A stretch of DNA of 64,000 nucleotides, from contig CANNGA010000005.1 of NCBI GenBank assembly GCA_947504035.1, positions 1-64,000 of the forward strand, written 5' to 3'. The notes below the pieces were generated by a model. The model did no database searches and was not told the DNA's origin. It saw nothing but the letters and a program-made list of their open reading frames with translations. Position numbers and translations under genes: made by a program. This DNA is from an uncultured Flavobacteriaceae bacterium (GTDB lineage: Bacteria; Bacteroidota; Bacteroidia; Flavobacteriales; Flavobacteriaceae). This document shows positions 35,933 through 40,236 of the stretch, piece after piece (the stretch's first letter is position 1; every line of letters begins with the position of its first letter).

Positions 35933-36008
35933 TATCTGCTATACATCAGATATTTAAAATTATCTGCTTTTTAACAGATATTATTTTTTATCTGCTTTTA
36001 AAAGGATA
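35933..36008 (+). promoter_or_regulatory. Three-fold 28-bp array of TATCTG-N8-CAGATA operators
   Basis: Three copies of a 20-bp inverted repeat start at 35933, 35961 and 35989, exactly 28 bases apart. The first two are perfect (TATCTG, eight bases, CAGATA); the third has the left arm intact and a degenerate right arm (AGGATA), where it runs into the -7 box of the next gene. The sequence between arms is AT-rich and variable. The best candidate binder is the helix-turn-helix of the SatD-family protein encoded immediately downstream, which would make it autoregulated; this is inference. Confidence 0.8.
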
Positions 36009-36014
36009 TATTTG
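36007..36014 (+). promoter_or_regulatory. -7 box of the satD-type operon
   Basis: TATATTTG, an exact TAnnTTTG match, overlapping the right arm of the third operator and lying 14 bases before the ATG. The leader would be almost absent. A protein bound at the third repeat would block RNA polymerase. Confidence 0.65.
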
Positions 36015-36027
36015 AAAAAACAAACTT

Positions 36028-36627
36028 ATGATAGCTGTTATAACAGGAGATATAATCAATTCCAAAGCTGGAGAAGTTAAGAGTTGGTTACCACTTTTAA
36101 AAGAGACACTTAGCATCTACGGCAACACACCTAAACATTGGGAAATATATAGAGGTGATAGTTTTCAGTTATCCTTAGACCCCAAAAAGGCCTTACTTGC
36201 AGCAATTCATATCAAATCTACCCTCAAACAAACTAAAACATTCGATGTAAGGATGGCTATAGGTCTTGGGGAAGAAACATACAGCGCACATAACATAACC
36301 GAATCTAATGGCAGTGCTTATGTAAATTCAGGAGAATGTTTCGAAAATTTAAAAAAAGATTCTTTGGCTCTAAAAACAAATAGTGAAGTTATAGATACTA
36401 CTTTAAATATCATGATTAGATTAGCACTTTTAACCGTAGATAATTGGAGTAGCGTGGTATCTAAAGTCATAAAAACCGCAATAGAACACCCCAATAAACC
36501 TCAAAAAGACTTAGCAAAACGTCTTAATAGGTCTCAAAGTAACATTAGCGAGGCTTTTAAAAGAGGAGGCTATGAAGAAATAATAACCATGAATCAATTT
36601 TACGTTAAACACATTTCTACATTATGA
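36028..36627 (+). CDS. SatD-family protein with C-terminal HTH
   Basis: 199 residues, cytoplasmic. It starts MIAVITGDIINSKAG, the signature beginning of the SatD family, named after the streptococcal acid-tolerance sat operon; the biochemical function is unknown. Residues 1-110 read like a palm-type nucleotide-cyclase/GGDEF fold: first strand with D8, then YRGDSFQL (41-48, D44) at the place of GGDEF, a helix, then VRMAIGLGE (74-82) at the place of the SIG strand. Residues about 158-182 (QKDLAKRLNRSQSNISEAFK) form a helix-turn-helix. Its stop overlaps the next ATG by four bases. The SatD call is fairly secure; the palm interpretation is mine. Confidence 0.8.
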   Translation: MIAVITGDIINSKAGEVKSWLPLLKETLSIYGNTPKHWEIYRGDSFQLSLDPKKALLAAIHIKSTLKQTKTFDVRMAIGLGEETYSAHNITESNGSAYVNSGECFENLKKDSLALKTNSEVIDTTLNIMIRLALLTVDNWSSVVSKVIKTAIEHPNKPQKDLAKRLNRSQSNISEAFKRGGYEEIITMNQFYVKHISTL

Positions 36628-37340
36628 TTGTCTTAATAATAAAACTATTAGTTGCTCATGTTTTAGGTGATTTTGTATTACAACCTAACCGTTGGATTGA
36701 AGCTAAAAAAAAGGAAACTTATAAATCTAAATATTTCTATTTACATGGTGTAATACATCTTATCGCCCTCCTTGTTGTACTTGAATTTAAGGTAAGTTAC
36801 TGGCCTTATATTATAGGGATAGTGGTAAGTCATTTGTTAATTGACCTTTTAAAGTTAAACCTCGAAACTAAACTTAATACAAGGCTATTATTTGGGTTAG
36901 ACCAACTCTTACATCTTATAATCATTGGCCTAGTAGCCTATAGCAATGCACCATATGCAATACAACTAAAACAGATATACACACCAAAGGCCTTACTACT
37001 TGTACTTGCCGTGCTATTGCTTTCTTTTGTATCATCTATAATTATGAAAATAGTAATGAGTAAATGGATTTTAGAAGAAGACAAATCTGAAGACTCCTTA
37101 GAAAACGCAGGAAAATATATAGGCATCTTAGAACGTCTATTTGTTTTTGGCTTTATACTCCTTAACCAATGGAGTGCCATTGGACTGCTTATTGCTGCTA
37201 AATCTGTTTTTAGATTTGGAGACCTCTCTAGAGCTAAGGACCGAAAACTCACAGAATACATACTTATAGGAACTTTAATGAGTTTTGGCTTGGCCATTTC
37301 TACAGGTCTATTGTACCAATATATAAATAGTCTATTGTAA
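36624..37340 (+). CDS. DUF3307 membrane protein
   Basis: 238 residues, with about six or seven membrane segments. DUF3307 hallmarks: LVAHVLGDFVLQP at residues 10-21, LHGVIH (40-45), SHLLIDLLK (69-77) and DQLLH (93-97). Conserved polar residues H12/D16, H41/H45, H70/D74 and D93/H97 lie in or next to membrane helices, a pattern like membrane-embedded metal-dependent hydrolases of the YdjM type; enzymatic function is inference. The start codon overlaps the end of the SatD gene (ATGA), so the two are translationally coupled. Confidence 0.85.
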   Translation: MIVLIIKLLVAHVLGDFVLQPNRWIEAKKKETYKSKYFYLHGVIHLIALLVVLEFKVSYWPYIIGIVVSHLLIDLLKLNLETKLNTRLLFGLDQLLHLIIIGLVAYSNAPYAIQLKQIYTPKALLLVLAVLLLSFVSSIIMKIVMSKWILEEDKSEDSLENAGKYIGILERLFVFGFILLNQWSAIGLLIAAKSVFRFGDLSRAKDRKLTEYILIGTLMSFGLAISTGLLYQYINSLL

Positions 37341-38085: not shown

Positions 38086-40236
38086 ATGCATTTACAAGCA
38101 GATAAAAATGAGGACCACCAAACCTTATCAACGGGTACTAAAACTAAGGACCAACGCATGCAAAAGTCTCAATTTGAATTTAGAGACCTTAGGCCTCAAA
38201 CGGCACAACTCAAAACACTACAAAGTCACGCCAATAAGAGCCCTAAACAACAACAGGTAGGTAGATTTCAAGATATGGCAGATACTTATGCTACCCAGCA
38301 AGAGTCACCTATATTACAAAAAGCAAACCGTACGGGACTACCTAATACCTTAAAAACAGGAATAGAACAGCTCTCTGGTTATGCAATGGATGATGTAAAA
38401 GTACATTACAATTCTAATAAACCAGCCCAGCTTAATGCACATGCGTACGCACAGGGTACAAACATACATATCGCATCTGGACAAGAAAGGCATCTTGCAC
38501 ATGAAGCCTGGCATGTTGTTCAACAAAAACAAGGGCGGGTACAACCTACATTGCAAATGAAAGGTAAAATTGGAATTAACGATGATGAGAATTTAGAAAA
38601 AGAAGCCGATGTTATGGGGGCCAAAGCCTTACACATAGGCCATCCTCTTCGCCCTAGCTTACCCCTGCAACCACAAACCCCAACCACACACTATACCACT
38701 ACATTTCAATTATTCAAGTATGTTAAAAAGCAGAATAGAGTACAAAGACGAGATGATGCTTATAGAACGAAAAGCGGCGAAGAAGATGTAGACCGAACAG
38801 CATATCAAAACTACCTGTTTGACCAGATCACCAAAGACAAAATTAAATCGTACGCCCCTACAGTAATGGGAACTAAAAAAGCAACAGACGAAGCAACCAT
38901 GCGCCCACACCGAGAAGATTTAACCGATAAATTGATATTTAGAGGCATGAGTGTAAATAACATTGCTAATAGAGCAAAAGATGATGCCTCTATTTTTACT
39001 GTAGACCAACCCAATGGTACTGCTTCCCCTGTAGAACATATTGTAGATGACGCTCCTAATTCGCCGTATTTATCGTTTGAAAGCCAAGGCTTAAATGTAA
39101 GTGCTGGTAAATATGCACATAAACCTGTCGATGCGCAAAACCAACCTATAGGTGTACAAACTTTAAGTTCTGGATTCTTTAAACAAGAGAAATCGTATAC
39201 CCAAGAGAACATGGACAAACACCAAGGCAAACGCATTGGTATTGTGGCGGGCATCTTTAATCAAGCGCATTATTTAGATGTATCTACCGAAACAAAAGCT
39301 CAAGCTGAAGTCGCGAAAACGACCAGCAGTCCTGCCGACAAAGCTACGGCTGTAGATTTGGCTGTTGCCGATAAAGAAATTTTAGTCAAACCTGGGACTG
39401 ATGGGATTAGCAAAGGACAAGTGCCTTTTTATGCAAAAGTAGAAGTTTTAACCAAGGATGAATTTATCGCAAATATAGATCGACAAACGCCCACGATGGC
39501 TCTCGGTTTTCATAATGGGGTCTATTATAAAATTCAAATTGATACAGCCAAAAGCAATGCAAAATTTCATTTCCAATTCCAAATGGACGACAGCTATACT
39601 GGTGGTGGTGGCATCATTAATTCTATAGACGATCTTGTAATTAATGCCGATTTATTTGGTTTAACCATAGAACAACAACATATGGTTCGTGAAGATTTAC
39701 CTTTAAAAACTGAAGCCTTAGTTACTCTAGACCATAACATCTCAAGAATACGTTTAAGTGCTGTTAAAAAAGAACACCTCGCAGAATTAAAAGGAGAGTA
39801 CGAATATTTATCAAACTGGTTGGCATCAGAAATGATAGCACCTGAACAGGTACAAGCCATTCCTAGTCTTAAAACCTTTGATGAAAACCTCAAATCAGTC
39901 TTAAAAAAACTGGATACATTGCAATGGCTTCTTGATATTCCTGAAAATCAGAAAAAATTAAATAAAACTAAAGCCTTTCTAAACAAATGCCTCTTAGCGG
40001 AAAGCAGACCAACCGTTACCACAAAGATTGGTGATTTTAAAGCAAGTGTATCTACAATGAAAGCTTTATACCTCACTACGAAACTTGCTTTTGAAACATG
40101 GCAAACAGCACGTATTACAGCTATACCTGCCGTGGTTACGTTTCATGAAATCATTACGGCACTAGAGCCTTTATTTGATGCTGTAGAACAATTATTCGAA
40201 CAAATAGAAGGCCCAGAAGCAGAAATAGCACAATAA
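38086..40236 (+). CDS. DUF4157 protein with ADP-ribosyltransferase-like region
   Basis: 716 residues, no signal peptide. Residues about 85-175 are a DUF4157 domain, found in effectors and toxin carriers linked to extracellular contractile injection systems: GIEQLSGYAMDDVKVHYNS, AYAQGTNIHIASGQERHLAH and the zinc-peptidase motif HEAWH (139-143) followed by VVQQKQGRVQPT. A region around residues 275-465 has the order expected of an ADP-ribosyltransferase: FRGMS (R286), SPYLSFES (S326-S330), KYAHKP, then DKEILVKPG (E431) and VPFYAKVEV. Residues about 480-716 are mostly helical. A polymorphic toxin or injected effector is likely; no injection-system genes lie in the window. The ART reading is inference. 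Confidence 0.8.
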   Translation: MHLQADKNEDHQTLSTGTKTKDQRMQKSQFEFRDLRPQTAQLKTLQSHANKSPKQQQVGRFQDMADTYATQQESPILQKANRTGLPNTLKTGIEQLSGYAMDDVKVHYNSNKPAQLNAHAYAQGTNIHIASGQERHLAHEAWHVVQQKQGRVQPTLQMKGKIGINDDENLEKEADVMGAKALHIGHPLRPSLPLQPQTPTTHYTTTFQLFKYVKKQNRVQRRDDAYRTKSGEEDVDRTAYQNYLFDQITKDKIKSYAPTVMGTKKATDEATMRPHREDLTDKLIFRGMSVNNIANRAKDDASIFTVDQPNGTASPVEHIVDDAPNSPYLSFESQGLNVSAGKYAHKPVDAQNQPIGVQTLSSGFFKQEKSYTQENMDKHQGKRIGIVAGIFNQAHYLDVSTETKAQAEVAKTTSSPADKATAVDLAVADKEILVKPGTDGISKGQVPFYAKVEVLTKDEFIANIDRQTPTMALGFHNGVYYKIQIDTAKSNAKFHFQFQMDDSYTGGGGIINSIDDLVINADLFGLTIEQQHMVREDLPLKTEALVTLDHNISRIRLSAVKKEHLAELKGEYEYLSNWLASEMIAPEQVQAIPSLKTFDENLKSVLKKLDTLQWLLDIPENQKKLNKTKAFLNKCLLAESRPTVTTKIGDFKASVSTMKALYLTTKLAFETWQTARITAIPAVVTFHEIITALEPLFDAVEQLFEQIEGPEAEIAQ

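Follow-up and report, generated by a model that had tools for sequence, protein, structure and literature searches.

The common palm active site combines an Asp that ends strand 1 with one or more acids in the strand 2-3 hairpin; the hairpin acid is single in nucleotide cyclases and usually doubled in other palms, as described in PMC2904730. In the Panoptes system, the palm protein OptS carries two catalytic aspartates (D6 and D57), both required, and shares its two-gene operon with a membrane protein (PMC12657218). PucR regulators join a GGDEF-like domain to a helix-turn-helix (HTH) and lack the catalytic motif (PMC11617747), so that the combination of palm and HTH as such is not new. An uncharacterised bacterial family, DUF2652, has been assigned computationally to the class III cyclases (PMC4886424); it is separate from SatD and is described as consisting of single-domain proteins except for one fused to a polyketide cyclase domain. 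In Streptococcus pyogenes, one accessory gene alone has an essentiality score in the top quarter; it is annotated satD and occurs in 178 of 249 genomes (PMC11323703). Here we describe SatD, its upstream palindromes and its membrane partner in a 64,000-nucleotide stretch of DNA (the window) from an uncultured Flavobacteriaceae bacterium (contig CANNGA010000005.1 of assembly GCA_947504035.1). In the literature searched, which mostly excludes subscription journals, we found no paper placing SatD among palms, and what was found on SatD and DUF3307 gave names only, no mechanism.

36028..36627, + strand: satD, an open reading frame (ORF) of 199 aa with a palm-type domain at residues 1-116 and a helical/HTH domain at residues 120-196

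SatD is probably an autorepressor with a metal-nucleotide palm site acting within a two-gene membrane module, and together with the related membrane protein it points to an undescribed two-gene signalling module. Like Panoptes, the satD locus couples a palm with two aspartates to a membrane partner in a two-gene operon, and Panoptes offers a precedent for the pairing of a palm synthase with a membrane protein. Whereas OptS is a minimal palm of the mCpol type, SatD has an HTH as well, and its gene is preceded by an operator-like array.

Predicted fold and invariant acids of SatD

From the order of its motifs, the original prediction had read SatD as a palm like those of class III cyclases, GGDEF proteins and minimal CRISPR polymerases, followed by an HTH. 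The motifs VITGDIINS with D8, YRGDSFQL with D44 and VRMAIGLGE (residues 74-82) are all found in the translated ORF. An AlphaFold2 model of SatD, with an 81-row alignment as input, had a mean predicted local distance difference test (pLDDT) of 93.8 and a predicted template modelling score (pTM) of 0.91, with strands (E) and helices (H) in the order E2-10 H17-31 E38-41 E45-50 H52-66 E73-81 H96-106 E113-116, followed by five helices. Strand 1 contains D8, the turn of the strand 2-3 hairpin contains D44, and strand 4 is VRMAIGLGE. The HTH proposed at about residues 158-182 agrees closely with model helices at 159-165 and 170-180. The model and its Foldseek matches predict the beta-alpha-beta-beta-alpha-beta core of the RNA recognition motif (RRM)-fold palm.

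Searched against the PDB with Foldseek, the model gave 921 matches at E <= 10, and the best 50 of these were listed and grouped by title. Among the matches listed, 47 of 50 belong to Cas10, GGDEF, nucleotidyl cyclase or GTP cyclohydrolase III proteins (SadC being counted under GGDEF): the top match is Csm1/Cas10 (E 9.6e-4), next come Cmr2, GGDEF domains and the class III cyclase Ma1120, and GTP cyclohydrolase III and cUMP synthase stand lower (E up to 0.049 among the matches listed). The remaining three are two chains of the PucR regulator 3onq (ranks 36 and 39) and one of YkoF (1sbr, rank 46). A fold unrelated to palms, the outcome that the original prediction had named as telling against it, did not occur. 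In the model, D8 and D44 occupy the palm active-site positions described in PMC2904730, and modelling leaves little doubt that SatD would adopt a palm fold.

We then considered conservation in a SatD alignment of 140 rows (131 distinct proteins), drawn from 30 of the 85 matched family genomes, 30 distant PF16264 loci and the best 80 of 580. Variation at D8 or D44 had likewise been named as grounds for giving up the palm assignment; both belong to the five columns that show no change across all 140 rows (D8, S12, G43, D44 and G95). All HTH columns are less strictly conserved than D8, D44, S12 and the hairpin glycine. The hairpin reads mostly LGDEFQ in the distant SatDs (L, F and Q in 28 of 30 each) and RGDSFQ in the window's branch, and position 42 is Arg in 110/110 rows of that branch and Leu in 28/30 distant rows. 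By eye, both motifs are kept in all eight annotated plasmid-borne SatDs (Proteobacteria, Bacteroidota, haloarchaea), one of them, L314, with a one-residue insertion. L314 and L053 are divergent SatDs with a hairpin of the form G-x-D-E-[IF] and one added residue between the invariant G and D. That both acids and S12 are kept in every row, unlike in the PucR-type regulator MabR, argues for a working nucleotide site, and invariance together with topology makes it very likely that the predicted metal site is built from D8 and D44.

At the level of sequence families, the window protein matched the Pfam SatD family PF16264 at 29.7 bits, with a curated cut-off of 29; this call is borderline, and a six-frame search of the window genome missed the window's own satD. 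A Pfam scan of the protein gave no match to PF00990 (GGDEF), PF00211 (class III cyclases), PF18182 (mCpol), or PF17853 and PF13556 (PucR regulators), and in place of the GG[DE]EF motif it reads RGDSF. We also compared SatD by hhalign with family profiles of 30 Guanylate_cyc, 21 GGDEF, 16 P-II and 24 response-regulator rows, from 30 loci each, with rows open on both strands removed before alignment. With the palm alone, and 60 column shuffles per family as null, Guanylate_cyc was the best-scoring family (31.3 over 81 columns; shuffle maximum 21.1) and GGDEF followed with 26.1 over 105 columns (shuffle maximum 15.2), while the response-regulator control reached 12.9, which was not significant (equalled or exceeded in 14 of 60 shuffles). 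In these palm-only alignments, D8 pairs with the D of FADIVGF in class III cyclases and with the first D of DID in GGDEF. D44 pairs with the D of the cyclase motif TIGDAYM and, RGDSF lying on GGEEF, with the third letter of the latter; we take the aligned acids to be the metal-site acids of those families. In the comparison with GGDEF and cyclase profiles, both acids aligned and scores exceeded shuffles, and the unrelated P-II profile also exceeded its null over 27 columns.

Several results weigh against the palm assignment and against an intact catalytic site. No cyclase, GGDEF or Cas10 link emerged from phmmer and hmmsearch of SatD against the PDB or from hmmscan. With full-length profiles, the P-II control had a higher hhalign probability than Guanylate_cyc for the window-branch set (29.3 versus 12.0), and for the distant set the values were just 0.7 with Guanylate_cyc and 5.8 with GGDEF; palm-only, P-II scored 24.0 over 27 columns with a shuffle maximum of 16.5. 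Among the Foldseek matches listed, a single one has E <= 1e-3, query TM scores are about 0.3-0.44 (the query including the HTH), and the root-mean-square deviation, 12-16 Angstrom for Cas10 rows, lies mostly at 4-6 Angstrom for GGDEF and cyclase domains. Finally, SatDs of the window's branch carry R42 in place of the G of GGDEF, just one acid in the hairpin (GDS), and a G at position 102. In 28 of 30 distant SatDs, position 102 is R, a candidate equivalent of the transition-state residue, in a helix resembling that of cyclases. The sequence evidence is weak; the palm claim is carried by structure and invariance.

SatD resembles GGDEF proteins in palm topology and, for most of the distant SatDs, in the LGDEFQ hairpin; unlike them, besides the absent Pfam match, it has R or L for the first G and no I-site or sign of cyclic di-GMP. 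Similarly, it resembles class III cyclases in its best palm-only score, in D8 and D44 lying on both motif aspartates and, for the window's branch, in the single hairpin acid, and it differs from them by the fused HTH and by transition-state Asn/Arg residues that are unrecognisable in the window protein, in addition to the missing family match.

The palindromic array and its covariation with SatD

Three palindromes with an exact 28-bp pitch stand upstream of satD:

35933..35952, no strand: palindrome 1, operator-like, TATCTGCTATACATCAGATA, 20 bp
35961..35980, no strand: palindrome 2, operator-like, TATCTGCTTTTTAACAGATA, 20 bp
35989..36008, no strand: palindrome 3, operator-like, imperfect, TATCTGCTTTTAAAAGGATA, 20 bp
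36007..36014, + strand: -7-like box, TATATTTG, matching TAnnTTTG, with a 2-bp overlap with palindrome 3

Relatives keep the array while its letters drift (TATCTG, TATCGG, TATTAG, TATTAC and others), and the array score lies above the maximum of 101 shuffles in 99 of 101 upstream regions. An independent pair search gave a best pitch of 28 or 29 in 68/80 window-branch, 23/30 distant and 2/3 plasmid loci, and in 16/240, 3/90 and 0/9, respectively, of dinucleotide shuffles of those regions. The arrays of distant SatD loci differ in sequence, for example GTTTCAT...ATTGAAAC. We take TAnnTTTG to be the consensus of the Bacteroidota -7 element. Of 81 arrays scored, 72 combine a 28-bp pitch with a score of at least 33; in 29 of these 72 the consensus occurs at the end of site 3, and in 28 of the 29 it starts 2 bp before the site end; the shuffled rate is 0.015.

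Exact copies of TATCTGC-N7-CAGATA in the window genome number two, both at satD. Matches with at most two mismatches in that genome (43 forward, 47 reverse) were fewer than in a backward-read control (66 and 65), and we therefore claim no other targets; across the window, loose operator matches did not clearly exceed chance, 6 of 100 shuffles giving at least as many. Several copies of another palindrome, TATGTGCAATTGCACATA, surfaced among the near-matches on contigs C12, C15, C17, C20, C21 and C33 of the window genome, with variants on C21 and C28; they are perhaps part of a mobile element.

We then examined which SatD columns follow the operator class. By mutual information (100/101 rows), the top columns were 171, 175, 39, 169, 172, 3 and 176, and five of these seven (169, 171, 172, 175 and 176) lie in or beside the recognition helix. 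An acidic residue 175 goes with C at half-site position 4 in 98 of 101 rows, and in 78 of 81 in a second set, where the best palm column agrees with the operator in 71 of 81. On both the palm-only and the joined tree we counted 11 operator changes and 9 residue changes. Restricted to supported branches, the palm-only tree yields two independent pairs (p 1) and the joined tree six, of which three to four agree and two to three are without difference (p 0.125-0.25), with none opposite on either tree. Shared ancestry may explain part of this covariation, and the independent pairs are too few for significance.

The satD promoter thus bears a conserved operator-like array that covaries with the recognition helix, as an autoregulator would. 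That SatD might control its own promoter, as originally proposed, gains strong indirect support from the array, its pitch, the promoter overlap and the covariation. Judging by covariation and spacing, the SatD HTH very probably binds the upstream array. The third palindrome touches the -7-like box, so that binding of SatD should repress satD and the partner gene; from this position, repression rather than activation is quite likely.

The membrane partner and the distribution of the pair

36624..37340, + strand: overlapping membrane-protein gene, with DUF3307 at residues 4-122 and the GxLER domain at about residues 155-230

The partner gene overlaps satD by four bases. In 80 of 80 named loci, satD is followed immediately, on its own strand, by a related membrane-protein gene, which in most cases overlaps the satD stop (gap of -3 in 58 and -6 in 13 of the 80); such a gene is also present in 30/30 family-genome loci and 28/30 distant PF16264 loci; of the two distant loci lacking it, L035 is at a contig end and L048 is not. 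None of the other neighbour clusters occurs in more than 22 of the 80 loci. From this linkage, satD and its membrane partner very likely form a functional unit.

DUF3307 was rejected as the shared part of the partners: 17 of 28 distant partners are 104-115 aa long, with room only for the C-terminal domain, and 9 of 28 are longer, the one tested (L034) giving no DUF3307 match. We name the shared C-terminal domain GxLER. Nine short members display the pattern G-x-x-E ... A-x-K ... R ... Y-x-L-x-G, with ER in eight of them. The Panoptes effector OptE is a two-transmembrane S-2TM-beta protein, whereas the GxLER partner matched no family model: five partners had no Pfam family over cut-off, nine had no NCBIfam match better than E 0.0036, two had no PHROGs match, and a GxLER-partner profile found no PDB sequence. 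The window partner was modelled as all-helical (pLDDT 91.4, pTM 0.74), and even its best PDB fold match was poor (E 0.67), for which reason we assign it no function. Its DUF3307 half matches the phage family phrog_2470. Four [HD]xxx[HD] pairs in predicted helices (H12/D16, H41/H45, H70/D74 and D93/H97) are invariant in 54 of 54 partner rows, which suggests that this half may form a metal site in the membrane protein.

Close SatD relatives occur in 85 of 149 family genomes. In phylum samples, PF16264 was found in 65 of 296 genomes and PF11750 in 75 of 292; the Pfam model misses many SatDs of the window type, including the window's own, and the PF16264 figure is therefore a lower bound. Even so counted, SatD is more widespread than mCpol (5 of 395), for which the window genome was negative. 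The satD pair is also found on plasmids: GxLER was present in 9 of 9 plasmid records examined, out of 17 (8 + 9) matching records, with hosts among Gamma- and Alphaproteobacteria, Bacteroidota, Fusobacteriota and haloarchaea. On the 10.3 kb Pseudomonas fragi plasmid pPFL (L306), the pair is among few cargo items, its neighbours being replication, recombinase and toxin-antitoxin genes.

A phage or defence gene was not supported by the searches made: of 68 pattern matches to window-type SatD in viral contigs none was confirmed, two queries of phage records found no satD, PADLOC gave no convincing match, and a BFVD fold search gave no match at E 0.001 or better. Elsewhere in the window, positions 38086-40236 encode a 716-aa protein in which residues 85-150 are an eCIS_core domain (PF13699) and a long C-terminal stretch matches nothing in Pfam.

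A proposed mechanism for SatD and its alternatives

A simple model would have SatD dimers bind the three palindromes at their fixed 28-bp pitch. The apparently intact palm site (D8, S12, G43 and D44) would most likely bind, and possibly convert, a nucleotide, whose state would set the binding of the dimers to the array, act on the membrane partner, or both. The fixed pitch of 28-29 bp corresponds to about 2.7 helical turns and suggests that adjacent dimers touch; the substrate of OptS sits between two protomers, which makes nucleotide-dependent SatD contacts conceivable. It is an even call whether SatD would synthesise a nucleotide, and doubtful that such a product would control the partner. 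A fuller version, in which SatD is a DNA-bound synthase whose messenger restrains the GxLER protein, as in a Panoptes-like guard module that also governs its own transcription, while nucleotide-dependent palm contacts between the 28-bp-spaced dimers set promoter occupancy, is rather improbable.

The alternative that survives best, somewhat short of an even chance, makes SatD a ligand-sensing repressor with a non-catalytic leftover palm, as in PucR/CdaR, which binds a small molecule and makes no nucleotide. SatD shares with such regulators (MabR, BAD_0249) the order of a GGDEF-like domain and an HTH, the PucR structure 3onq is among the Foldseek matches listed, and the window's branch has GDS rather than GDE and is without the R102 of distant SatDs. 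However, MabR has lost its catalytic motif and bears a globin-like N-terminal domain, whereas SatD retains its acids, and the full invariance of D8, D44, S12 and the hairpin glycine, stricter than that of any HTH column, argues against a leftover.

It is unlikely, although less so than the last alternative below, that satD and its partner are a toxin-antitoxin-like or guard pair in which SatD restrains a harmful membrane protein by repression, contact or nucleotide. The tight linkage of two overlapping genes, the operator-like arrays and the carriage of the pair on plasmids are consistent with it. In Panoptes, OptE on its own blocks growth, which returns when OptS is present in catalytically active form (PMC12657218). 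The S. pyogenes gene annotated satD, a possible homologue of the present satD, is essential-like yet accessory (PMC11323703), a pattern that would be as expected for the protective half of a guard pair. The PADLOC search without a convincing match and the phage records without satD (two queries) count against this alternative. In a last alternative, SatD would be a plain one-component regulator with structural acids, its ferredoxin-like domain having no more than a likeness to palms. This is very improbable: the hidden Markov model searches without cyclase homology, the score of the P-II control, itself of ferredoxin-like fold, and YkoF at rank 46 speak for it, but 47 of the 50 fold matches listed are nucleotidyl-transfer palms or GTP cyclohydrolase III, and both acids stand at the palm-defining positions given in PMC2904730.

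The probable autorepressor with a metal-nucleotide palm site thus remains our preferred reading, and what is new here is the operator covariation and the GxLER partner. The palm-HTH evidence, an array kept through sequence change and a partner domain matched by no model make SatD function directly testable. If catalytic, SatD would add to the palms of nucleotide signalling (GGDEF, cyclases, Cas10 and mCpol) a type that regulates its own transcription, and this could account for a gene annotated satD being essential though accessory in S. pyogenes (PMC11323703). If SatD did act as a DNA-bound synthase, a single protein of 200 residues would combine synthesis of the message, output at the membrane and feedback on transcription, in bacteria as well as in archaea.
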